From: Deroplatys truncata
Taxonomy: Eukaryota; Arthropoda; Insecta; Mantodea; Mantidae
Reading direction: 5' to 3'
Assembly (NCBI GenBank): GCA_030765065.1
Contig: CM060989.1
Coordinates: forward strand, 40,787,501 to 40,851,500
DNA length: 64,000 bases
A model generated the notes under the pieces. That model saw only the letters and a program-made list of their open reading frames with translations, had not been told where the DNA came from and searched no databases. Position 1 is the stretch's first letter. The number at the start of each line of letters is the position of its first letter. Shown one piece after another: positions 1,391 through 64,000 of the stretch. The position numbers were made by a program, and so were the translations under genes.

Positions 1391-2057
1391 ACTGATGTGT
1401 TGCACTCACAAACGCTTATTCTCCATCTACTTCATGTTAATCGAGATAAACACTTGAAGACATATCTTATTACTAGTTTTCTTGTAGATGCAAGGGGAAT
1501 ATGGTAGGCTTTAAGCGATAGTCAAATATTTTAACGCTGGTTGCTATGCGGCGCATTCCATTCTCTTTGCATGTCCAGGACATAAAAAACGGATAACGAA
1601 TTCCCATTTAAGAAAAAGTATATGTATTGGAAAATTGAAACAAATAACAAAGAATAGCTCGAAAATGGTTCACTCGACGAAAAAAAAATGTATGTGACAT
1701 AAATTGTGTTTTTTAAGAAAACCAACGTTTTTCGTGTACCAAAATTTTGTCTATCTCTTACGGTTTACCAGTTATGTAAAAGTCATTCAGAATGAAGAGG
1801 ACTTTTGGGGACACTTCTAGAAAATCCAAGATATACATTTCGTTTGTCATGAAAATATCTTAAACATATGTCACTATATTAAAAATCGTTAGAGCCATTT
1901 TTGAGGAAATAAAAATTTTCGAAAAATGTTTTGCCTCAAGTATAGTCTGATGTGGAGGGATTTTCTTGAAAATCTTCGTGTGGCATAAACTAAACATATA
2001 CTAAACTCAAGTACCTAGTTTGGTATTCATCCGACTTTTCGTTTAAGGGTTATGCTG

Positions 2058-2091
<34 letters not shown>

Positions 2092-2223
2092 TATTTTTCC
2101 AAAAATGCATTATTCGGATTCAAGGTACTTCAAAACATGTATTTCCGGTGATATTTAGGTATCGAAATTTTGGGTGGAATGCAATACTTCCCCTACATAC
2201 TATACGTAGTAGAGGAAGTAAGA
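1391..2223 (+). mobile_element. fam-H repeat, near full length
   Basis: Strand + means reading from CTGATGTGTTGCACTCAC to GTAGAGGAAGTAA. The copy has the conserved internal landmarks: the TATTCTCCAT block, the CATTCTCTTTGCATGTCCAGG block, ACGGTTTACCAGTTATG, a CA microsatellite and the GTATCGAAATTTTGGGTGG block. It lacks the internal ACTTTCTCTACT arm and about 30 bases after it, where CACTCAC runs straight into AACGCTTATT. The copy is diverged, and no protein is encoded. Confidence 0.85.
2060..2088. repeat. (CA)n microsatellite inside fam-H
   Basis: An uninterrupted CA run at the fixed microsatellite position of fam-H, just after TTATGCTG and before GGATATTTTTCC. Confidence 0.95.
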
Positions 2224-2290
2224 ATACAATGGGAAATGTCGCTCCGTTTAAATGTGCAATTTAAAGGACCAAATTGATCAATAGGCTCAA

Positions 2291-6451: not shown

Positions 6452-7275
6452 TCTGATGTGTTACACTCACATGACTTTCTCTACTCTTGTACAAACTATT
6501 TTTACAAACGCTTATTCTCCATATGCTTCATGTTAATCGAGATATCGAGATATCAATCTTATTGGTAATTTTCATGTAGATGCAAGGGGAATTGGTAGTA
6601 TTTAAGTGATAGTCAAATATTTTAAGCGCTGGTTGCTATGTGGCGCATTCCATTCTCTTTGCATGTCCAGGACATAAAAGAAATGAATAACGAATTTGAG
6701 AAAAAGTATAAGTATTGCAAAATTTAAGGGAATAACAAGCAATATCTCGAAAGCGGTTCACTCAACAAAAGAAATGCATATGACAGAAATTGTGCATTTT
6801 AACGCGATCTACATTTTTTGTGTAGTAAAATTTTGTCTATCTCTTATGGTTTACCAGTTATGCAAAAGTCGTTCACAATGAAGAATACTTTTGGAGACAT
6901 TCCCAGAAAATTCGAGATATACATTTCATTTCTCATGACACTAAATCGTTAGAGCCATTTTTGAGAAAATTAAAATTTTCGTAAAATGTTCCATGTAAAG
7001 CGTAGTCTGGGGTGGGGAGATTTTCTTGAAAACCTTCGTGTCGCATCTCTGGAAGATACTGAGCCTAAATACCAAGTTTGGTGTTTATCCGACTGTTCGT
7101 TTCTGAGTTATGCTGTTCACAGACACACAGACACACACACGGACATGTTTCCAAAAATGCTTTTTTTGGATTCAGTGAGCCTCAAAACATGTATTTCCGG
7201 TGAAATCTCGGTATCGAATTTTTGGATGGAATACAATACTTCCCCTACTGACTATACGTAGTAGAGAAAGTAAAA
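6452..7275 (+). mobile_element. fam-H repeat, full length
   Basis: Begins TCTGATGTGTTACACTCACA and ends GTAGTAGAGAAAGTAAAA. The 12-bp arms are ACTTTCTCTACT at 6474-6485 and AGTAGAGAAAGT at 7260-7271, an exact inverted pair. The left arm lies 22 bases inside the element. A short CA tract lies at about 7120-7140. The 91-codon frame at 6986-7261 is discussed under rejected items. Confidence 0.92.
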
Positions 7276-7282
7276 AAACGCA

Positions 7283-10497: not shown

Positions 10498-11322
10498 TTT
10501 TTACTTTCTCTACTACGTACAGTAAGTAGGGGAAGTATTGTATTCCACCCAAAAATTAGATACCGAGATTTCACTGGAAATACATGTTTTGGGGCCCCCT
10601 GAATCCAAAAAAAGCATTTTTAGAAACATGTCCTGTGTGTGTGTCATATATCTGAACAGCATAACTCAGAAACGAACAGTCGGATAAACACCAAACTTGG
10701 TATTTAGGTCCAGTAACAGGTTTTCAAGAATAACACCCCACCCCAGATTACCCTTTACATGGAAAATTTTTCGAAAATTTTAATTTTCTCAAAAATGGCT
10801 CTAACGATTTTGATTAAAATATCATTGTTTAAGATATTTTCATGACAAATAAAATGTATATCTTGAATTTTCTGGGAATGTCTCCAAAAGTATTCTTCAT
10901 TGTGAACGACTTTTGCATAACTGGTAAACCATAAGAGATAGACAAAATTTTACTACACACAAAATGTAGATCGCATTAAAATACAGTTTATGTCATATAC
11001 ATTTTTGTTGTTGAGTGAACTATTTTCGAGATATTGCTCGTTATTCCCTTAAATTTTCCAATATTTTTTCTCAAAAGGGAATTCGGTATTCATATTTTTA
11101 AGGAATGGACATGCAAAGAGAATGGAATGCTCCACATAGCAAACAGCTCTTAACAGATTTGACTATCGCTTAAAGTCTACCAATTCCCCTTGCACCTACA
11201 AGAAAATTAGCAATAAGATTAACTTCTCGATTAACATGAAGCATATGGAGAATAAGAGTTTGTAAAAATAGTTTGTATAAGAGTAGAGAAAGTCATGTGA
11301 GTGTAACACATCAGATTTTTTT
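10498..11322 (-). mobile_element. fam-H repeat, full length
   Basis: Reverse orientation: TTTTACTTTCTCTACTACG at the left, GAGAAAGTCATGTGAGTGTA then ACACATCAGATTTTTTT at the right. All fam-H landmarks are present, including the GTGTGTGTG tract near 10636. Confidence 0.92.
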
Positions 11323-17445: not shown

Positions 17446-18734
17446 TAAGCTGTTTAGCTTGTATATATTTTTCAATTAATTATTACTCTTCTAATATTTG
17501 TGTTATTTCTATCTCGTGGTTCATCTGAATGTGACTTGCATGTATTATCATTGTAATCAGGATTTTTCTATGTAGTTGAGCGGAAGAGAGAGCCAAACGA
17601 CCTTAGCTCTGCCAAATGAATAAATTATTATATAACAATAATAATTTACATTTATAGACATTTAGGTTTGGATATAATGACTGCCGTTCAATCAGAGCTT
17701 TGCATTAATAAATTCATGTCCCTAGCAACAGTTATCCTTCACACGTTTTCACGTATATAGGAATTAAGCAGGGAGTTTTAACCATGTTTTCCGAACAACT
17801 GAATTCTCTGGGAAAATGGAATTGACCTAAAAGACGTAAGGTACATAACTAAGTACTTATAAGGGATTGCAAGGTTTTCAGGTATGCATGTCTTTTTTTC
17901 AGAGAAATACGACCTTTTTATTGTTTAGTTTGGAAGGTTTTTACAAAATAAAGAGAGCTGGCTTTCTAACACAGCTCAACCTTCAAGATTTATTCTAACC
18001 TACATAAAACGGTTCCGCACCCCATTCATCCCTTCCATAAAAAAGGAGACCTTGAAACCCTTAAAATACATAAAAAGGTAGGGAAAAAGAACGGCTTTAT
18101 AAAAGCCTCCCCCCTCCTAACTTACAACCACTTTTCAGGAAAGCATAAAAAAGAGGTTTCTACCCTAAAACCTGCATAAAAATGAGTGTGGGATGCAAAA
18201 TTATTTACCCTCTCAGCTTCCCCTTCACGTGCAAAATTTTCCCATGAATCTGGAATCTAGTTTTTTTGTTCATTAATCCCATATGTTCTACCCTCCGGCT
18301 TTTTTCCTTAGAATGGTGAATGACGTCACTGCTTGCTACCAGAGGGGAGTATAAGGCAGTAAAATGTAGGTCAACTTTGCATCTATTGTCGCTTTTTTTT
18401 CTTTTCTCTTCTTTTCTCGTCTCCACCTGAATTAGTCATCCTAGAGTAGGTCAGGATTTGTACAATATTCAGAAGCTACATCCTTCCCTTTATTTGTTTC
18501 TCTTTCTTAGTGTGGATGATATGCAATTCAATACAGATTTTTAGATTTAGAGCAAATGGATATGGGAGTAGACTGTTGAAAAGTGTCATTGCATCCTTTT
18601 ACCTTCTAGCGATCCTCTTGTTAACAAAGAATGATTAATGAAATAGTATATTCCGATGCTAGTGTGGAAAGTACACTATTACAGAATCAAGAAATAGTTT
18701 GAAAAGTCGAGACGAAGTGGAATCGTTTCTATTT
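17446..18734. other. AT-rich non-genic DNA
   Basis: No recognisable coding region. Short CATAAAA-rich stretches occur at 18000-18190. A scrap at about 18637-18680 (AATAGTATATTCCGATG, AGTGTGG) resembles 60066-60100 and 60543-60580. Confidence 0.5.
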
Positions 18735-18873: not shown

Positions 18874-19080
18874 AATATGTGTTGCACTCACATGAGTTTC
18901 TCTACTCTTGCACAAACTATTTTTACAAATGCTTATTCTCCATACGCTTCATGTTAATCTTATTGCTAATTTTCTTGTAGGTGCAAGGGGAATGTGGTAG
19001 ACTTCAAGTGATAGGCAAATGTTTTAAGAGCTGGTTTATATGTGGAGCATTCCATTTTCTTTGCATGCCCAGGACATTAA
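18874..19080 (+). mobile_element. fam-H head fragment
   Basis: Begins ATGTGTTGCACTCACATGAG and stops at the CATGCCCAGGACATTAAAA block. It lies between a tail fragment and a complete copy. Confidence 0.85.
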
Positions 19081-19086
19081 AAAAAA

Positions 19087-19805
19087 TCTGATGTGTTACA
19101 CTCACATGACTTTCTCTACTCTTGTACAATCTATTTTTACAAACGCCTATTCTCCATATGCTTCATGTTAATCAAGATATCGAGATGTCAATCTTATTGG
19201 TAATTTTCTTGTAGATGCAAGGGGAATACGGTAGGTTATAAGCGATAGTCAAATATTTTAACGCTGGTTGCTATGTGGCGCATTTCATTCTCTTTGCATG
19301 TCCAGGACATAAAAAAAATGAATAACGAATTTGAGAAAAAGTATAAGTATTGAAATATTTAAGGAAATAACAAGCAATATCTCGAAAACGGTTCACTCAA
19401 CAAAAGAAATGCATATGACATAAGTTGTGTATTTTAACGCGATCTACATTTTTTGTGTAGTAAAATTCTGTCTATCTCTTACGGTTTACCAGTTATGCAA
19501 AAGTCGTTCACAGTGAAGAATACTTTTGGAGACATTCCCAGAAAATTCGAGATATACATTTCATTTCTCATGACATTATCTTAAACATATGATATTTTCA
19601 TCAAAATCGTTAGAGCCATTTTTGAGAAAATTAAAATTTTCGAAAAATGTTCCATGTAAAGGGTAGTCTGGGGTAGGGGGATTTTCTTGAAAACCTTCGT
19701 GTCGCATCCCTGGAAGATACTGAACCTAAATACCAAGTTTGGTGTTTATCCGACTGTTCGTTTTTGAGTTATGCTGTTCACAGACACACACACACAGACA
19801 CACAG

Positions 19806-19845
<40 letters not shown>

Positions 19846-19982
19846 AGACATGTTTCCAAAAATGCTTTTTTTTGGATTCAGGAGGTCTCAAAAGATGTAT
19901 TTCCGCTGAAATCTCGGTATCGAATTTTTGGGTGGAATGCAATACTTCCCCTACTTACTATACGTAGTAGAGAAAGTAAAAA
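19087..19982 (+). mobile_element. fam-H repeat, complete reference-quality copy
   Basis: Starts TCTGATGTGTTACACTCACA. The 12-bp arms are ACTTTCTCTACT at 19109-19120 and AGTAGAGAAAGT at 19966-19977, perfectly inverted. A long CA tract lies at 19785-19849. This copy shows the family layout best: 22-base outer segment, internal arm, about 670 bases of noncoding body, microsatellite, about 120 bases, terminal arm, A-run. Confidence 0.95.
19785..19849. repeat. (CA)n microsatellite inside fam-H
   Basis: Interrupted CA/CAGA run at the fixed position in fam-H. Confidence 0.95.
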
Positions 19983-20590
19983 TAATAACGAATTCCCATT
20001 TGAGAAATAAGTAATAATTATTGGAAAATTCAAACAAATGACAAGCAATATCTCGGAAATGGTTCACTCGACCAAAAAAAAAAAAAGAAAAAAAAGTATG
20101 ACATAAATTGTGTGTTTTAACGAGATATACATTTTTTGTGTAGTAAAATTGTGTCCATCTCTTACGCAAAAGTCATTCAGAATGAAGAGGACTCTAGGAC
20201 ATTCTCAGAATATTCATGATACACATTCCATTTGCCATGAAAATATCTTAAATGTATGATATTTTAACCAAAATCATTAGCCATTTTTGAGAAAATTAAA
20301 ATTTTTGAAAAATGTTCCATGTAAAGGGTAGTCTGGGGTTGGGGAATTTTCTGAAAATCTTATTGTCGCATCCTTGGAAGACACTAAACTCAAATACAAA
20401 GTTTGGTATTAATCCCACTTTTCGTTTTTGAGTTAAGCTATTCACAGACACACACACGGACATGTTTCCAATAGTGCTTTATTTGGGATCAGGGCAGTCA
20501 GAACATGTAATTCCAGTGAAATCTTGGTATCGAATTTTTGGGTGGAATACAATACTTCCCCTACTTACTATACGTAGTAGAGAAAGTAAA
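19983..20590 (+). mobile_element. fam-H repeat lacking its head, in tandem
   Basis: Follows the complete copy directly and begins at the AATAACGAATTCCCATTTGA block. It runs to GTAGTAGAGAAAGTAAA, where SINE-2 is inserted. Confidence 0.9.
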
Positions 20591-35351: not shown

Positions 35352-36276
35352 AATCTGATGTGTTGCACTCACATGACTTTCTCTACTCTTGTAAAAACTA
35401 TTTTTACAAACGCTTATTCTCCATCTACTTCATGTTAATCCATAAACATTTGCAGAGTCCATCTTATTGCTAATTTTCTTGTAGATGTAAGGGGATAATA
35501 TATTTACAAGGGCAATTTGGAAATACAGTAGCCTTTAAGCACATACATATCTCTTAATAACTGTTTGCTAGGTACAGCACCATTCTCTTTCCCACAGATT
35601 AATACTCTTTGCATATCCAAGACAAAAAAAAATGAATAACGAATTCCCATTTGCGAAAATAAGTATTGAAAAATATAAGACAATAATAAGCAATATCTCG
35701 AAAATGCTTCACTCAACAAAAAAATGTATATGATATAAATTGTGTATTTTAACGCGATCTACATTTTTTGTTTAGTAAAATTTTGTCTACCTCTTATGGT
35801 TTACCAGTTATGCAAGTCGTTCACAATGAAGAATACTTTTGGAGACATTCCAGAAAATTCAAGATATACATTTTATTTGTCATAAAAATATCTTAAACAT
35901 ATGATATTTTAATCAAAATCGTTAGAGCCATTTTTGAGAAAATTAAAATTTTCGAAAAATGTTCCATGTAAAGGGTATTCTGGGGTGGGGTAATTTTCTT
36001 GAAAACCTTCGTGTCGCAGCTATGGAAGATACTGAACCTAAATACCAAGTTTGGTGTTTATCCGACTGTTCGTTTCTGAGTTATGCTGTTCACAGACAGA
36101 CACACACACAGACAGACACACAGACAGACACACAGACACACACGGACATGTTTCCAAAAATGCTTTTTTGGATTCAGGGGTCTCAAAACATATATTTCCG
36201 GTGAAATCTCGGTATCGAATTTTTGGGTGGAATACAATACTTCCCCTACTTACTATACGTAGTAGAGAAAGTAAAA
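35352..36276 (+). mobile_element. fam-H repeat, full length
   Basis: TCTGATGTGTTGCACTCACA to GTAGTAGAGAAAGTAAAAA, with both 12-bp arms and an ACAGACAGACAC-type microsatellite at about 36094-36145. Confidence 0.94.
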
Positions 36277-36690
36277 ATTCTTTGGAATGAAGTGGACTTT
36301 AAAGGTTATTTCCAGAAAGTTCAAGATATTCATTTTATTTGTAAGTAAATATGTTTATTATATGGTATTTTAATCAATATCTTTAGAGCCATTTTTTAAA
36401 AAATCAAAACTTTCGAAAAATGTTCGAAGGCGAGGAAATTTTTGTGAAAATCATATTGTCGCATCTTTGGAAGATACTGAAATAAAATACCAAGTTTGGT
36501 ATTTATCCGACTATTCGTTTCTGAATTATGCTGTTCACAGATACTCATACACGGAACGTTTTCTAAAAATGCTTTTTTTGGGGTTCAGGGGACCTCAAAA
36601 CATATTTCCGGTGAAACCTCAACATCTAATTTTTGAGTGGAATACGATACTTCCCCCTACTTACTATACGAGAAGAGAAAGTGAAAATAA
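36277..36690 (+). mobile_element. fam-H repeat, 3' part, in tandem
   Basis: Begins at the TTCTTTGGAATGAAGTGGAC block and ends TACGAGAAGAGAAAGTGAAA. It follows the full copy directly, giving a third unit in the run. Confidence 0.85.
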
Positions 36691-41557: not shown

Positions 41558-42389
41558 CCTGATGTGTTACACTCACATTACTTTCTCTATTCTTTTACAA
41601 ACTATTTTTACAAAAGCTTATTGTCCATCTACTTTATGTTAATCGAGATAACTATCTTATTGCTAATTTTCTTGTAGCTACAAGGGGAATATGATAGACT
41701 TTAAGCGATAGTCAAATCTTTTAAGAGCTGGTTGCTATGTGGAACATTCCATTCTCTTTGTATTTCCAGGACATAAAAAAACGAATAACGAATTCCCATT
41801 TGAGAAAAAGTATAATCATTGGAATATCCAAACAAATAACAAGGAATTTCTCGGAAATGGTTCGTTCAAAAAAAATGTATATGACATAAATTGTGTGCTT
41901 TAACGAGATCTACATTTTTTGTGAAGTAACATTTTGTACATCTCTTAGGGTTTACCAGTTATGCGAAAGTCATTCAGAATGAAGAGTACTTTGAGAGACA
42001 TTCCCAGCAAATTTAAGACATACATTTTATTTGACATAAAAATATCTTAAACATGTGATATTTTATCAAAATCGTTAAGAGCCATTTCTGAATATTTCCG
42101 AAAACTGTTCCATGTAAAGAGTAGTCCGGGGTGGGGGATTTTCTCAAAAATCTTCGTGTCGCATCCTTGGAAGATACTAATCACAAATACCAAGCTTAGT
42201 AGTTATCCAACGTTTCGTTTTTGAGTTATGCTGTTCGCAGACTGACAGACACACAAACGGACATGTTTCCAAAAATACTTTATTTGGATTCAGTGCACCT
42301 CAAAACATGTATCACTCGTGAAATCTAGGTATCGAATTTTTGGCTGGAACGCACTTCCCCTACTTACTGTACGTAGTAGAGAAAGTAAT
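41558..42389 (+). mobile_element. fam-H repeat, full length
   Basis: CCTGATGTGTTACACTCACA to GTACGTAGTAGAGAAAGTAA. The internal arm is changed to ACTTTCTCTATT. The microsatellite is very short (ACTGACAGACACACAA). Confidence 0.92.
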
Positions 42390-43880: not shown

Positions 43881-44326
43881 AACAAGAACATTTATCAATT
43901 ATACGGTTTGTTCTGAGTTAAACAGGTATTTAATCTGGCAGTGCATAGTAAACGAGGACGTACAGTGAAATGTCAGAAAGTGTGCGTGCTGAACACAAAC
44001 GAGACATCTGTGTGAATTGTTTGTGAATTCTTGCCTCAAAGTCCAATGCTTCTCTAATATTAGTTATGGAGGTGCTGTAACACAAAATAAAAATTGAAAT
44101 TGACATAATATTAATAAAACGAGGTTCTATGGTATCCTATGTGTACAGCAATGTGTTAAATTCAGACACATGCAATCTACGGCGAAAACCAATTTGCCTA
44201 ACTGCATGCAGATCGTTTGCTATGTTTATCTCCATTTCATCTTCAACCATAGTGGTGATGTACATTCAAATATATACATTCATGCCTAATTAATGGACAT
44301 TTCTTGTTCCATGTTTGAGGAACATA
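43881..44326. other. Non-genic DNA
   Basis: No coding sequence or family recognised. Confidence 0.5.
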
Positions 44327-44830
44327 CAGGGTTATTCTAAAAGAAGGAACAGACTTTAAACATTTATTTCTAATTAACGACAATAGATGGCGACACGTGC
44401 GATAACCACCAAAATAGAGGAGAGTTCAAACTTTTATTTTGTGTGTTCAAAATGAGTACCATTTGTTATACGAGGACGACCAGTGCTTTTCAGTTTGCAT
44501 ACGTAACCATCTTCTACGAATTTATTGTATCAATTGTAGATTTTTTATGACGAGGCGGCTCGTTGTTGAACTTATAACGAAATGTACGCTGAAATGAAAT
44601 AATGGATTCACTCTTTACATACTGCAGCACACAAAACGACTTTTCCTGTGGCGTTGCCATTTTCTCGTAAACAAACACAGCGCTGCTATAGGCACTGAAT
44701 GGAACTAATAGGTGGGGGCTTAAAACTTTGAACTTTCCTCTATTCAATGATGTGTCATATGTGTTGCTATATTTTGTCGTTCATTAAAAATTAATATTTA
44801 AAGTCTGTTCCTTCTTTTTGAATAACCCTA
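44327..44830 (-). mobile_element. Tc1/mariner-like deletion derivative with ~37-bp TIRs
   Basis: The left end CAGGGTTATTCTAAAAGAAG continues GAACAGACTTTAAACATT. The right end is its inverted copy with about three differences. TA lies outside on both sides (44325-44326 and 44831-44832). The interior (504 bp total) has a piece of transposase N-terminus at the right and a small C-terminal piece (reverse of TTTTGTGTGTTCAAAATG) at the left, so the middle has been deleted. Confidence 0.88.
44514..44660 (-). pseudogene. Transposase N-terminal HTH fragment
   Basis: From 44660: MATPQEKSFCVLQYVKSESI, then ISFQRTFRYKFNNEPPRHKK. This is the first helix-turn-helix of a transposase type common in insects, likely Tc1/mariner superfamily. 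The start is chosen at MATPQ because the codons upstream (MNRGKFKVLSPH) lie in the element's leader. The catalytic region is deleted; the frame ends after about 49 residues. Confidence 0.8.
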
Positions 44831-45824
44831 TATATGAATCTTATGATATTTAGAATAATTCCGTATGTTTGAGCAGTGAGGACTGACTTCGTTTGAAAAC
44901 CTCCCTCGCTCCATCCACTAAGTTGGATGACAGAGAACATTAATTCCCAGTGACAATGAGTTGTATTTAGAAATCAATAAACATTCTGAAACGCTCTTTT
45001 GTGCTCGTGCCTTCAATAAAGCGAAATGATGTAAGGAAAAGCTGCAGTGCGGATGCGGGGACAAAAAGGCGGGCAGAAATCGAGCTGAAATGTCATCTGG
45101 AGGCAGATGGCTCGACCAACCTATCGGAATCCCAAATGGATGACTTCCGGTTTGCAAGAGCTTCTGTCTCTCGCACACAAGAACAGAGTTTTGCAGACTT
45201 TTTGATTGGCGTGTTTTCTGAAAAGTGATACTCCCGCCTTTACAAAGTAAGGCGTTGTGATCATATACACTCAGCTGGAGTTTCTTCCCTTGAGAGGTTA
45301 GGGTAAATCAGTTGATTTGCAATAATGAACATTATCTTAATGCACTCATATCAGAAACCTGTTTTCACGCGATTGCTTCGTTGAGAGATTCCCAACTGAT
45401 ATAAAACACCTCAGCAGTTTTTTCTTTCTAGGTAATCGGTATTAATGTAGAAACTGTTTACATAATCAATATATATATATATATATAAATACAATTTTTA
45501 GACAAGCCCTTATTTCTTTCATAAAAATTCTACTTATTAGCTTCTCCTCCAAATGTCCACAAATTCCATTTCACTTGTGGGAGTGTTGAAGTAGTAAAAA
45601 CTTTGTTTCAGGTTAGGTAGTATATTATTAAATTTATCTGCCTTTTTGTGGATGCTTTCTAGTGGTGTTGTAGTGGTATGAGTTGAGCTGGTATTTGCGT
45701 GCGGTAGTCTTAGTAGTGGTGTTGGAGATATAGTAATAGCGTTATACTAGTAGTAGAAGTTGGTGGTGCTATAATGGTATTGGTAATAATAATAATAATA
45801 ATAGATATGATGGTATAATGGAGT
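44831..45824. other. Non-genic DNA with an (AT)n tract
   Basis: Two antisense frames at 44918-45228 share the same DNA and show no domain. A short AT run lies at 45470-45487. From 45650 on, GGTGGT/AGTAGT-rich DNA leads into the minisatellite. Confidence 0.5.
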
Positions 45825-45825
45825 G

Positions 45826-45860
<35 letters not shown>
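45825..45860. repeat. (GTA)n microsatellite
   Basis: About 12 units directly before the 29-bp minisatellite. Confidence 0.95.
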
Positions 45861-45861
<1 letters not shown>

Positions 45862-48350
45862 ACAGTAGTATTGCCAGTAGTGGAAAGGTTGGTGTAGTAA
45901 TGCCAGTAGTGGAAGAGTTGGTGTGGTAATGCGAGAAGTGGAAGAGTTGGTGTGGTAATGCGAGAAGTGGAAGAATTGGTGTGGTAATGCCAGTAGTGGA
46001 AGAGTTGGTGTGGTATAGCTAGTAGGGGAAGAGTTGGTGTGGTAATGTCAGTTGTGGAAGAGTTGGTGTGGTATAGCTAGTAGGGGAAGAGTTGGTGTGG
46101 TAATGTCAGTTGTGGAAGAGTTGGTGTGGTATAGCTAGTAGGGGAAGAGTTGGTGTGGTAATGCCAGTTGTGGAAGAGTTGGTGTGGTATAGCTAGTAGG
46201 GGAAGAGTTGGTGTGGTAATGCGAGAAGTGGAAGAGTTGGTGTGGTAATGCGAGAAGTGGAAGAATTGGTGTGGTAATGCCAGTAGTGGAAGAGTTGGTG
46301 TGGTATAGCTAGTAGGGGAAGAGTTGGTGTGGTAATGCCAGTTGTGGAAGAGTTGGTGTGGTATAGCTAGTAGGGGAAGAGTTGGTGTGGTAATGCCAGT
46401 TGTGGAAGAAGTGGTGTGGTATAGCTAGTAGGGGAAGAGTTGGTGTGGTAATGCCAGTTGTGGAAGAAGTGGTGTGGTATAGCTAGTAGGGGAAGAGTTA
46501 GTGTGGTAATGCCAGTTGTGGAAGAATTGGTGTGGTAATGCCAGTAGTAGAAGAATTGGTGTGGTATAGCTAGTAGGAGAAGAGTTAGTGTGGTAATGCC
46601 AGTTGTGGAAGAAGTGGTGTGGTATAGCTAGTAGGGGAAGAGTTGGTGTGGTAATGCCAGTTGTGGAAGAATTGGTGTGGTAATGCCAGTAGTGGAAGAA
46701 ATGGTGTGGTATAGCTAGTAGGGGAAGAGTTAGTGTGGTAATGGCAGTAGTGGAAGAATAGGTGTCGTAATGCCAGTAGGGAAGAGTTGGTGTGGTAATG
46801 CCAGTAGGGGAAGCGTTGGTGTGGTATAGCTAGTAGGGGAAGATTTTGTGTGGTAATGCCAGTAGGGGGGAGAACTGGTGTGGTAATGCCAGTAGTGGAA
46901 GAGCTGGTGTGGTAATGCCAGTAGTGGAAGAGCTGGTGTGGTAATGCCAGTAGTGGAAGAGCTGGTGTGGTAATGCCAGTAGTGGAAGAGCTGGTGTGGT
47001 AATGCCAGCAGTGGAAGAGCTGGTGTGGTAATGCCAGTTGTGGAGGAGTTGGTGTGGTTTAGCTAGTAGCGAAAGAGTTGGTGTGGTAATGCCAGTAGTG
47101 GAAGAGCTGGTGTGGTAATGCCAGTAGTGGAAGAGCTGGTGTGGTAATGCCAGTTGTGGAGGAGTTGGTGTGGTATAGCTAGTAGCGGAAGAGTTGGTGT
47201 GGTATAGCTACTAGCGGAAGAGTTGGTGTGGTATAGCTACTAGCGGAAGAGTTGGTGTGGTAATGCCAGTAGTGGAAGAGCTGGTGTGGTAATGCCAGTT
47301 GTGGAGGAGTTGGTGTGGTAATGCCAGTAGTGGAAGAGCTGGTGTGGTAATGCCAGTAGTGGAAGAGCTGGTGTGGTAATGCCAGTAGTGGAAGAGCTGG
47401 TGTGGTAATGCCAGTTGTGGAGGAGTTGGTGTGGTATAGCTAGTAGCGGAAGAGTTGGTGTGGTATAGCTACTAGCGGAAGAGTTGGTGTGGTATAGCTA
47501 CTAGCGGAAGAGTTGGTGTGGTAATGCCAGTAGTGGAAGAGCTGGTGTGGTAATGCCAGTTGTGGAGGAGTTGGTGTGGTAATGCCAGTTGTGGAAGAAG
47601 TGGTGTGGTAATGCCGGTTGTGGAAGAAGTGGTGTGGTAATGCCGGTTGTGGAAGAAGTGGTGTGGTAATGCCGATTGTGGAAGAATTGGTGTGGTAATG
47701 CCAGTAGTGAAAGAGCTGGTGTGTAATGCGAGTACTGGAAGGGTCGGTGTAGTAATACCAGTATAGGAAGAGTTGGTGTAGTAATACCAGTATAGGAAGA
47801 GTTGGTGTAGTAATGCCAGTACTGGAAGAATTGGTGTGGTAATGCCAGTATAGGAAGAGCTGGTGTGGTAATGCCAGTAGAGGAACAATTGGTGTAGTAA
47901 TGCCACTAGTGGAAGAGTTGGTGTAGTAATGCCAGTAGTGGAAGAGTTAGTATGGTAATGCAGTAGTGGAAGAGTTGGTGTGGTAATGTCAGTATTGGAA
48001 GAGTGGGTATGGTAATGCCAGTAGTGGAAGAGTTGGTGTGGTAATACCAATAGTGAAAGAGTTGGTGTGGTAAAACCAATAATGAAAAGTTGGTATAGTA
48101 ATGCCAATATTGGTTGGTTGGTATGGTAATGCTAGTAGTGGAACATTTGGTGTAGTAATGCCAATAGTGGAAGAGTTAGTATGGTAATGCCAGTAGTGGA
48201 AGAGCTGGTATGGTAATGTCAGTATTGGAGGAGTTGGTGTGGCAATGCCAATATTGGAAGAGTGGCGTGGCAATGCCAATATTGGAAGAGTTGGTGTGGC
48301 AATGCCAATATTGGAAGAGTTGGTGTGGCAAAGCCAATAGTGGAAAGTAG
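45861..48350. repeat. 29-bp minisatellite with higher-order structure, ~85 units
   Basis: The basic unit is GGAAGAGTTGGTGTGG then TAATGCCAGTAGT, 29 bases. A second type has TATAGCTAGTAGG in the second half. Types alternate as 58-bp dimers at about 46010-46500. A nine-unit block at 47149 recurs at 47410, a shift of 261 = 9 x 29. The array is flanked by GTA and TAG microsatellites. Three units (87 bases) make a whole number of codons, which explains the 211-codon minus-strand frame rich in HYHTNSS and LPLL; it is not a gene. Confidence 0.96.
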
Positions 48351-49922: not shown

Positions 49923-50766
49923 TTTTTACTTTCTCTACTACGTATAGTAAGTAGGGGAAGTATTGTATTCCACCCAAAAATTCGATACCAAGATTTCACC
50001 GGAAATCCAAAAAAAAAAAAAACATTTTTGAAAGCATGTCCGTGTGTGTGCCTGTGTCTGTCTGTCTGTGAACAGCATAACTCAGAAACGAACAGTCGGA
50101 TAAACACCAAACTTGGTAATTAGGTTCAGTATCTTCCATAGATGCGACACGAAGGTTTTCAAGAAAATCCCCCCACCCCAGATTACCCATCACATAGTAC
50201 ATATTTCGAAAATTTTAATTTTCTCAAAAGTAGCTCTAACGATTTTTATTAACATATCATATGTTTAAGATATTGACAAATGAAATGTATATCTCGAATT
50301 TTCTGGGACTGTCTCCAAAAGTATTCATTGTGAAGGACTTTTGCATAATTGGTAAACCATAAGAGACAGACAAACTTTTACTACACAAAAATGTAGATCG
50401 CGTTAAAATACACAATTTATGTCATAAACATTTTTTTTGTTGAGCGAACCATTTTCGAGATATTGCTTGTTATTCCCTTAAATTCTCCAATACTTATACT
50501 TTTTCTCAAATGGAAATTCGTTATTCATTTTTTTTGGTCCTGGTAATGCAAAGAGAGTGGAATACTCCACATAGTAACGAGCTCTTAAAATATTTGACTA
50601 TCGCTTAAAGCCTACCAATTCCCCTTGCATCTACAAGAAAATTAGCAATAAGATTAACATTTCGATATCTCGATTAACATGAAGCATATGGAGAATAAGC
50701 GCTTGTTAAAATAGTTTGTACAAGAGCAGAGAAAGTCATGTGAGTGTAACATATCAGATTTTTTTC
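49923..50766 (-). mobile_element. fam-H repeat, full length
   Basis: Reverse orientation: TTTTACTTTCTCTACTACG to GAGAAAGTCATGTGAGTGTA plus ACATATCAGATTTTTT. A stretch around 50006 (the ATGTTTTGAGGCCTC block) is replaced by a poly-A run. Confidence 0.93.
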
Positions 50767-61427: not shown

Positions 61428-63924
61428 GGTTCTTAGTTTCTTTCTTAGTTTCACTCTCAGTTGCGTTCTTAGTTTCTTTCTTAGTTGCGTTCTTAGTTTC
61501 ATTCTTAGTTTCGTTCTTAGTTCCGTTCTTAGTTTCTTTCTTAGTTTCGTTCTAAGTTGCGTTCTTAATTTCTTTGTTTCCTTCTTAGTTGCGTTCTTAA
61601 TTTCTTTCTTAGTTTCTTTCTTAGTTTCGTTCTTAGTTTCATTATTAGTTTCTTTCTTAGTTTCTTTCTTAGTTTCGTTCTTCGTTTCATTCTTAGTTTC
61701 ATTCTTAGTTGCGCTCTTCGTTTCTTTCTTAGTTGCGTTCTTAGTTTCATTCTTAGTTTCTTTCTTAGTTGCGTTCTTAGTTTCATTGTTAGTTTCTTTC
61801 TTAGTTGTGTTCTTAATTTCTTTCTTAGGTGCGTTCTTAGTTTCTTTCTTAGTTTCATTCTTAGTTGCGCTCTTCGTTTCTTTCTTAGTTTCTTTCTTAG
61901 TTGCGTTCTTAGTTTCGTTCTTAGTTTCGTTCTTAGTTGCGTTCTTAATTTCTTTCTTAGTTGCGTTCTTAGTTTCGTTCTTAGTTTCATTCTTAGTTTC
62001 TTTCTTAGTTGCGCTCTTCGTTTCTTTCTTAGTTTCGTTCTTAGTTTCATTCTTAGTTTCTTTCTTAGTTGCGTTCTTAATTTCTTTCTTAGTTGCGTTC
62101 TTAGTTTCTTTCTTATTTTCATTCTTAGTTGCGTTCTTAGTTTCTTTCTTAGTTGCGTTCTTAGTTTCTTTCTTAGTTGCGTTCTTAGAATCTTTCTTAG
62201 TTGCGTTCTTAGTTTCGTTCTTAGTTTCTTTCTTAGTTGCGTTCATAATTTCTTTCTTAGTTGCGAAAATTAGTTTCTTTCTTAGTTTGTTTCTAAGTTG
62301 CGTTCTTAGTTTCTTTCTTAGTTGCTTTCTTAGTTTCTTTCTAAGTTGCGTTCTTAGTTGCGTACTTAGATTCGTTCTTAGTTGCGTTCTTAGATTCGTT
62401 CTTAGTTGCGTTCTTAGATTCGTTCTTAGTTGCGTTCTTAGTTTCTTTCTTAGTTGCGTTCTTAGTTTCTTTCTAAGTTGCGTTCTTAATTTCCTTTCTT
62501 AGTTTTTTTCTTAGTTGCGTTCTTAGTTTCTTTCTAAGTTGCGTTCTTAATTTCCTTTCTTAGTTTCTTTCTTAGTTGCGTTCTTAGTTTCTTTCATAGT
62601 TGTGTTCTTAGTTTCTTTCTTAGTTGCGTTCTTAGTTTCTTTCTAAGTTGCGTTCTTAATTTCTTTTCTTAGTTTCTTTCTTAGTTGCGTTCTTAGTTTC
62701 TTTCTTAGTTGCGTTCTTAGTTTCTTTCTTAGTTGCGTTCTTAGTTTCTTTCTTAGTTGCGTTCTTAGTTTCTTTCTTAGTTTCTTTCTTAGTTGCGTTC
62801 TTAGTTTCTTTCTTAGTTGTGTTCTTAGTTTCTTTCTTAGTTGCGTTCTTAGTTTCTCTCTTAGTTGCGTTTTTAGTTTCTTTCTAAGTTGTGTTCTTAA
62901 TTTCCTTTCTTAGTTTCTTTCTTAGTTGCGTTCTTAATTTCCTTTCTTAGTTTCTTTCTTATTTGCGTTCTTAGTTTCTTTCATAGTTGTGTTCTTAGTT
63001 TCTTTCTTAGTTGCGTTCTTAGTTTCTTTCTTATTTCGTTCTTAGTTTCTTTCTAAGTTGCGTTCTTAGTTTCTTTCTTAGTTTCTTTCTTAGTTGCGTT
63101 CTTAGTTTCTTTCTTAGTTTCTTTCTTACTTTTTTTCTTAGTTTCGTTCTTAGTTGCGTTCTTAGTTTCTTTCATAGTTGTGTTCTTAGTTTCTTTCTTA
63201 GTTGCGTTCTTAGTTTCTTTCTTATTTGCGTTCTTAGTTTCATTCTAAGTTGCGTTCTTAGTTTCTTTCTTAGTTTCTTTCTTAGTTGCGTTCTTAGTTT
63301 CTTTCTTAGTTGCGTTCTTAGTTTCTTTCTTAGTTTCTTTCTTAGTTGCGTTCTTAGTTTCTTTCTTAGTTTCTTTCTTACTTTATTTCTTAGTTTCGTT
63401 CTTAGTTGCGTTCTTAGTTTCTTTCTTAGTTGCGTTCTTAGTTTCTTTCTTAGTTTCATTCTTAGTTGTGTTCTTAGTTTCTTTCTTAGTTGCGTTCTTA
63501 GTTTCTTTCTTAGTTTCTTTCCTAGTTGCGTTCTTAGTTTCTTTCTTAGTTACGTTCTTAGTTTCTTTCTTACTTTTTTTCTTAGTTTCTTTCTTAGTTG
63601 CGTTCTTAGTTTCTTTCTTACTTGTGTTCTTAGTTTCTTTCTTACTTTTTTTCTCAGTTTCTTTCATAGTTGCGTTCTTAGTTGCGTTCTTAATTTTCTT
63701 TCTTAGTTTCTTTCTTAGTTGCGTTCTTAATTTCCTTTCTTAGTTTCTTTCTTAGTTTCTTTCTTAGTTTCTTTCATAGTTGCGTTCTTAGTTTATTTCT
63801 TAGTTTCTTTCTTAGTTTCTTCCTTAGTTGCGTTCTTAATTTCCTTTCTTAGTTTCTTTCTTAGTTTCTTTCATAGTTGCGTTCTTAGTTTCTTTCTTAA
63901 TTGTGTTCTTAGTTTCTTTCTTAC
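61428..63924. repeat. 12-bp minisatellite, about 200 units
   Basis: Units TTCTTAGTTTCT and TTCTTAGTTGCG, with GTTTCG, GTTTCA and AATTTC variants, in mostly alternating order. Because the unit is four codons, several frames stay open: FLVSFLVA on plus over 410 codons, KETKNATK and KLRTQLRK on minus. Indels of 1-2 bases every few hundred bases switch the open frame, as expected of noncoding DNA. The array passes directly into a fam-H end. Confidence 0.96.
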
Positions 63925-64000
63925 TTTTTACTTTCTCTACTACGTATAGTAGGTAGGGGAAGTATTGCATTCCACCCAAAAATTCGATACCGAGATTTCA
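63925..64000 (-). mobile_element. fam-H repeat, cut by the window edge
   Basis: Reverse orientation: TTTACTTTCTCTACTACGTA, then TAGTAGGTAGGGGAAGTATTG-type DNA and ATTCGATACCGAGATTTCA. The outer arm ACTTTCTCTACT is intact. The rest lies beyond the window. Confidence 0.92.

Follow-up and report, generated by a model that had tools for sequence, protein, structure and literature searches.

The repeat family fam-H, of which one complete copy lies at 19087-19982 on the minus strand of the 64,000-nucleotide stretch of Deroplatys truncata DNA analysed here (the window), can almost certainly be read as a HINE, the non-autonomous passenger of a Helentron that appears to be active now or to have been so very recently. 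This Helentron/HINE reading, which had been put forward from the letters of the window, is supported by a Rep/PIF1 partner with the same ends, by a T-run target and by the absence of a 5-bp duplication.

Direct reading of the focal copy on the element strand gives the order TTTTT, ACTTTCTCTACT, body, AGTAGAGAAAGT, the tract CATGTGAGTGTAACACATCAGA and T8. The features of this copy and of the sequence around it are as follows:

19983..20590, minus strand: 5' part of an older host HINE around the focal copy (blastn, query 3-669 at 20590-19978)
19087..19982, minus strand: focal HINE copy, 5' end at 19982 and 3' end at 19087, 96.9% identical to the 17-copy consensus
19978..19982, minus strand: 5' TTTTT, probably element-borne, with TTATT in some other insertions (flank comparisons)
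19966..19977, minus strand: 5' subterminal inverted arm ACTTTCTCTACT (read directly, and arm count)
19944..19955, minus strand: inner arm AGTAGGGGAAGT (element strand) of the 5' inverted repeat, pairing with the 5' arm in one hairpin
19784..19850, minus strand: TG-type microsatellite at a near-fixed place (bounds approximate, by eye)
19311..19318, minus strand: internal T-run, T8 on the element strand, a recurrent self-insertion site that is unfilled here
19109..19120, minus strand: 3' subterminal inverted arm AGTAGAGAAAGT (read directly, and arm count)
19091..19107, minus strand: 3' hairpin-like tract with stem ATGTG/CACAT and a 7-nt loop, the stem being also in the autonomous partner
18877..19086, minus strand: 3' part of the same host HINE (query 665-892), including its T-run at 19079-19086 (blastn)

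The inverted arms pair at 12 of 12 bp and are asymmetric, lying 5 bp from the 5' edge and about 25 bp from the 3' edge; the pair, its asymmetry and the flanking T-runs are all as the sequence-only reading had described them. With up to 2 mismatches allowed, the 12-bp arm has 38 matches in the window, compared to a mean of 8.31 and a maximum of 21 in 100 shuffles. An inverted repeat of the DINE-1 type adjoins the 5' arm, and its hairpin, ACTTTCTCTACT...AGTAGGGGAAGT, has a folding energy of -4.7 kcal/mol (z = -2.05; 4 of 200 shuffles equally good). At the other end, ATGTG and CACAT of the claimed 3' hairpin can pair, and this stem occupies the same place in the HINE and in the autonomous partner, but the energy of the 5-bp stem does not exceed that of shuffled sequence (z = 0.10 and -0.49 for HINE and partner, respectively).

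A consensus was built from 17 distinct full copies, leaving out 17 further copies from one satellite, so that the consensus foreseen earlier now exists from sampled copies and not from the genome-wide set. The 17 full copies are 86.4-98.4% identical to this consensus, in which no stretch longer than 79 codons is free of stops. The microsatellite that had been noted at a set place was confirmed there, the place being near-fixed, since YG-type (TG/CG) runs of at least 4 units begin at copy positions 114-163 in 15 of the 17.

Within the window, blastn with the focal copy (E ≤ 1e-5) retrieved 34 pieces covering 11,862 bases, or 18.5% of the sequence; the previous estimate of 27 pieces and roughly 23% was of the right order, and its exact figures were not reproduced. 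Further copies include:

1408..2224, minus strand: near full-length diverged HINE (query 1-844, 79%; blastn)
6452..7276, minus strand: full-length HINE, apparently an insertion into the A7/T7 run of an oppositely oriented, diverged HINE
10498..11315, plus strand: full-length HINE copy (blastn, consensus)
35354..36277, minus strand: full-length HINE, apparently within diverged HINE-related sequence (blastn, consensus)
41559..42388, minus strand: full-length diverged HINE, 86.4% identical to the consensus (blastn, consensus)
49923..50758, plus strand: full-length HINE copy (blastn, consensus)
63925..64000, plus strand: HINE 5' end running off the window (blastn)

Just before the last of these, a long degenerate simple repeat of the TTCTTAGTTTC type spans 61500-63900, and the segment 60001-64000 has a strong AT skew (-0.46). 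A strong GC skew (+0.46) was seen over the 4 kb at 44001-48000. No Rfam family matched the window at gathering scores.

Across the genome (4.29 Gb) we counted 177,870 exact 18-bp 5' tips (89,269 forward and 88,601 reverse) and 126,012 exact 31-bp 3' ends (62,823 forward and 63,189 reverse), with no genome-wide matches to the reversed-pattern control of either. The window has 7 exact 5' tips where the genome averages 2.65 per 64 kb, an enrichment of about 2.6-fold, and it holds 3 exact 3' ends compared to a mean of 1.88. Scaling the 18.5% of this one window gives, very roughly, a genome share of about 7-12% for fam-H. We claim no abundance record, and for the class as a whole high abundance has a precedent: the cited part of a work on the very large genomes of grasshoppers reports that Helitrons make up 7-20% of the repeats studied there (PMC7486953).

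A genome search with the Pfam family Helitron_like_N returned at least 152 matches (150 of 291 candidates scored), none of them, among the matches listed genome-wide, inside the window; in control genomes the result was 0 of 14. The best-scoring Rep loci (L009-L028) reach up to 196 bits and carry internal stops in 17 of 20 cases, and a second set near 104 bits contains many long open frames. Ten loci were taken from the 15 listed with open frames of at least 2324 aa, their flanks not being consulted in the choice; two elements (A on C10, B on C8) were fetched whole, and the other eight as end pieces only. The open frames of these autonomous elements are 2324-2543 aa long, and both Rep and PIF1 domains were found in the two ORFs searched. 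Upstream of the open frame the HINE 5' tip is present in all ten (8 with exact TTTACTTTCTCTACTACG and 2 with the one-change form ATTACTTTC), at a distance of 2.0 kb in A and of 2.8 kb in B, where the stretch holds a nested HINE. Downstream, all ten carry the near-identical 3' end GTAGAGAAAGTTATGTGAATGTAACACATC, its distance from the end of the open frame being 904-905 bp in both elements measured. The autonomous partner that was missing from the sequence-only reading is therefore found, as elements with a Rep/PIF1 ORF and fam-H ends, and the Rep/helicase search it had called for gave these ends in 10/10 elements examined.

Identity to A is 87% for the first ~700 bp of the HINE, which match the 5' region of A, and 94% for the last 33 bp. 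The part in the middle gave no same-orientation match to A or B, and pieces of it match in inverted orientation. The HINE is thus not a plain deletion derivative of A or B, because the same-orientation match beyond ~700 is limited to the terminal 33 bp. Outside repeats, A and B differ by 47 nucleotides in 1702 codons (dN = 0.0067, dS = 0.0197), a divergence that points to recent movement under some constraint.

The boundaries of the element were defined by flank comparisons. In 47 distinct 5' flanks, T occupies positions -5 to -1 in 44, 43, 36, 47 and 45 cases, with A at -3 in 8; the edge is sharp, as T is found at -6 in just 12 of the 47. Seven of 50 flanks had the variant TTATT, and most of these lie at sites unrelated to each other. 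At the other end, 36 distinct 3' flanks have T in 33-35 for five places, and then in 29, 24 and 16. Among 34 flank pairs, 24 are all T on both sides and hence uninformative, and none of the 10 informative pairs agrees with a 5-bp target duplication (the pairs are not all independent, and 2 of these 10 have degenerate 3' ends); such a duplication was accordingly rejected.

For a HINE lying in element B, insertion-free counterparts were found at L073, L083 and L081, with 100, 99.4 and 99.4% identity over 160 bp, calculated after removal of TTTTT plus the core (three listed of 16 spanning matches). By eye, and among the matches listed, 59 of 69 non-satellite rows of the unfilled internal run show T7 or T8; filled sites have T5 on the left in 82 of 100 and T7 on the right in about 61 of 100. 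Each insertion therefore adds the core plus about five T. The simplest reading is that the 5' T5 is element-borne, or that the T's are divided between both ends; a target duplication of T or TT is not contradicted. The empty-site comparison that had been proposed thus bears out insertion into a T-run without a 5-bp duplication, while the exact point between T and T cannot be placed, because the insertion sits inside the run. Neither fixed-length duplications nor a transposase- or LINE-encoding parent with the same ends, the two outcomes named beforehand as contrary, appeared in the material examined.

When the flanks of the focal copy are joined, they align through other HINE copies: the focal copy was inserted into the internal T-run of an older HINE. 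Exact patterns of such junctions are found genome-wide at 17,611 5'/5' and 8,059 3'/3' positions, next to 33,422 intact internal T-runs, and controls for the junction and intact-run patterns gave no matches in the genome. In the 17 sampled copies, the host motifs are retained in 14/17 and 6/17 and the tip in 15/17. After correction for this retention, which is rough and leaves the 3' motif uncorrected, and with heritable double ends included in the 5'/5' count, the numbers become about 24,000 5'/5', 23,000 3'/3' and 95,000 intact runs, so that the two sides match, as expected from nested insertion. Very roughly, about a fifth (~20%) of the internal T-runs are filled genome-wide. We do not claim 5'-end reuse from the raw 2.2-fold excess of 5'/5' junctions, as this excess vanishes after the motif-retention correction.

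Autonomous copies occupy the same site: 6 of the 10 (B, L075, L079, L081, L085 and L087) lie in the HINE-internal T-run. Their host modules are 89.9-97.8% alike on the 5' side and 88.9-98.3% on the 3' side, and comparison HINE copies (136 pairs) have a median of 93.4% and a range of 82.2-98.4%. The six nested autonomous copies therefore look like separate insertions, since their host modules vary as other HINEs do. By eye, left and right host modules are balanced in 9 of the 10 autonomous copies, with one extra on the right in L085/L086.

Seven B-type copies carry, further upstream, a second 5' module of ~620-675 bp. It is 98.2-99.8% identical among the copies and ends at an identical junction, ATGCGTTATTCATTTT/ACTTTC, in all seven. 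Being near-identical and sharing this junction, the second module travels with the element (heritable, 7/7).

A satellite-like array lies near the start of contig C1 (~20-123 kb, L039-L064), with a period of ~3.41 kb and 31 units by the internal-run pattern or 26 by the 3' end. The units examined each carry a whole HINE copy, bounded by ATATTTTT-AATTTC on the left and CAGATTTTTAAAGG on the right. A tandem repeat search in one satellite locus, covering periods up to 500 only, found none.

A mechanism can be proposed for these arrangements. Rep would nick at the 5' end, a strand would be displaced along the element, and replication would terminate where the 3' arm and the hairpin tract lie. This single strand, either linear or after circularisation, would then be joined into a T-run, and the fused endonuclease may nick the target run. 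Elements would thereby insert into one another, giving stacks with 5' ends on the left and 3' ends on the right; mutual insertion is frequent because every HINE carries its own T7-T8 run. A nick at the outer 5' end could result in two 5' ends carried as one unit, comparable to what is found in the one Helentron lineage here. It is possible, if on balance doubtful, that the Helentron favours its own passengers, with the T-run of the HINE acting as a landing pad that diverts insertions and the stacks seeding transposons with several 5' ends, one lineage of which is already spreading.

The internal T-run may alternatively be hit no more often than its fraction among all T-runs would dictate, without self-preference, an explanation that we consider a serious contender, falling somewhat short of an even chance. 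A count by eye places about 6 of the 67 T-runs of at least 7 in the HINE-rich window inside HINEs, a proportion similar to the 9.9% of exact 5' tips that are located at a HINE-internal T-run genome-wide; given the roughly 2.6-fold enrichment of the window in exact tips over the genome mean, however, the genome-wide share of HINE-internal runs should be lower. The autonomous copies also speak against proportional hitting, as 6 of 10 in the HINE site has p = 1.5e-4 if such sites make up 10% of T≥7 runs and p = 0.004 at 18%, values to which survival bias or regional clustering may contribute.

It is unlikely that the stacks arose mainly from misfiring of rolling-circle replication (end bypass, concatemers) rather than from repeated insertion into T-runs. 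The near-identical second 5' module that seven copies of one Helentron lineage share would fit such an origin, but the divergence of the six host 5' modules, within the range of other HINEs, points to separate insertions, and the roughly corrected 5'/5' and 3'/3' totals are about equal.

The class of the autonomous element can be diagnosed from its proteins. At loci L029-L038 the Rep motif reads VEFQMRGSPHEH, with a serine of the Helentron type in 10/10; the RG(S)PHxH serine is given as the Helentron Rep signature in the cited part of PMC4067079. A second diagnostic triplet of Helentrons is F/Y w/l/y/k R near Rep motif 2; here YYQR precedes the Rep motif, the exact alignment column of the triplet not being fixed. 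Of the 20 loci L009-L028, 11 yielded the motif, each with leucine at the diagnostic place. Rep copies with the leucine of canonical Helitrons thus coexist with the Helentron in this genome.

ORF B contains Herpes_teg_N (E = 2.2e-9) near its start, followed by charged repeats, DUF6570, Helitron_like_N and PIF1. At the C-terminus of ORF A, Exo_endo_phos_2 (PF14529), reported for mite Helentrons in the cited part of PMC4067079, scores just above the cut-off (E = 2.8e-6; 27.6 bits, cut-off 27.4), and that of ORF B matches PF03372 below the Pfam cut-off (E = 0.0062). The endonuclease domain thus reaches the cut-off in one of the two ORFs searched, and A and B are 99% identical across the region. 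A PDB sequence search with the ORF B C-terminus gave no match (best E = 0.4). With its second half, the PDB search retrieved PIF1-type helicases and Helraiser, a canonical Helitron transposase (E = 3e-25), a match that does not discriminate Helentron from Helitron because it is limited to the helicase part. A Helitron2 without endonuclease does not fit, given the domain above cut-off in ORF A.

In the PDB, the ORF B N-terminus (L071:4778-5677) has as its best match the deneddylase of a herpesvirus large tegument protein (E = 0.0027). Among the proteins carried by the Helentron group, the cited part of PMC4067079 names OTU-like cysteine proteases, and it reports an RPA-like second ORF for mite Helentrons. 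A 63-bp tandem repeat inside the L071 and L069/L070 ORFs (~aa 300-690 in B) encodes highly charged 21-residue repeats, roughly eighteen of them in ORF B (by eye). ORFs A and B differ in length by 135 aa, ahead of the Rep part, and 126 aa of this gap equal six repeat units.

Two other classes of element can be given hardly any credence. Separate Rep copies with a Helitron-type leucine motif would be compatible with a derivative of a canonical Helitron (Helitron1; 5'-TC, CTRR-3', insertion between A and T), but this origin is contradicted by the autonomous partner and by the fam-H ends, which are ACTTTCTC...CACATCAGA in T-runs and not TC/CTRR between A and T, and no fam-H tip (≤2 mismatches) was found within 1.5 kb at 19 of the 20 loci L009-L028. 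Just as improbable is an ordinary MITE or another cut-and-paste DNA element, which would have inverted repeats at its ends and duplicate its target: the 12-bp inverted pair near both ends and the T-runs on both sides, which resemble duplications, would suit it, yet the arms are asymmetric, a 5-bp duplication is seen in 0/10 informative pairs, and the partner encodes Rep and helicase domains.

The assignment of fam-H to a Helentron links a repeat that is among the most conspicuous in this genome to its likely driver, with long, nearly identical Helentron ORFs. The tens of thousands of self-insertions form a natural data set on target choice, end positions and the origin of multiple 5' ends. Self-preference, if true, would give a high-copy transposon a means of limiting its harm to the host.

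Helentrons and HINEs were defined by these features by Thomas, Vadnagara and Pritham in 2014 (PMC4067079), and, as far as the cited part of that work goes, fam-H resembles HINE/DINE-1 elements in its subterminal arms (12-15 bp), its inverted repeat with the 5' side in the 5' arm, the position of its putative 3' palindrome, its microsatellite, its T-rich target without duplication and its Helentron partner with an endonuclease. Compared with the same account, fam-H differs in not having arisen by simple deletion from either of the two partner copies it was compared with, in its very sharp 5' TTTTT/TTATT edge, in extensive self-nesting at one internal site, and in a 3' arm about 25 bp from the end (38-60 bp in mite HINEs). 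Satellite-like repeats of the Pacific oyster are described in the cited part of PMC7492417 as non-autonomous Helentrons with tandem repeats, as here, although the internal repeat of fam-H is a short microsatellite, unlike the oyster repeats. The grasshopper genomes of PMC7486953 are large and Helitron-rich, as is this one, and the terms Helentron and HINE have a count of zero in the part of that source covered. A limited search of the open literature yielded no description recognised as fam-H and, for Helentron self-insertion, PMC5148889 alone.

The latter concerns FoHeli, a fungal Helitron2 of Fusarium oxysporum, for which the cited part reports self-insertion, multiple 5' termini and a model of their origin. 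Self-insertion and double 5' ends are thus not new, having this precedent. FoHeli shares with the fam-H system asymmetric inverted repeats, self-insertion and several 5' ends with one 3' end. As described in that part, FoHeli is without an endonuclease, whereas the Helentron here has an endonuclease domain, and its duplicated 5' piece is typically <200 bp, compared to ~620-675 bp here, heritable in 7/7 copies of one lineage. Nesting junctions, unlike in the cited account of FoHeli, are found here by the thousands, and the self-nesting of fam-H is unusually clear.
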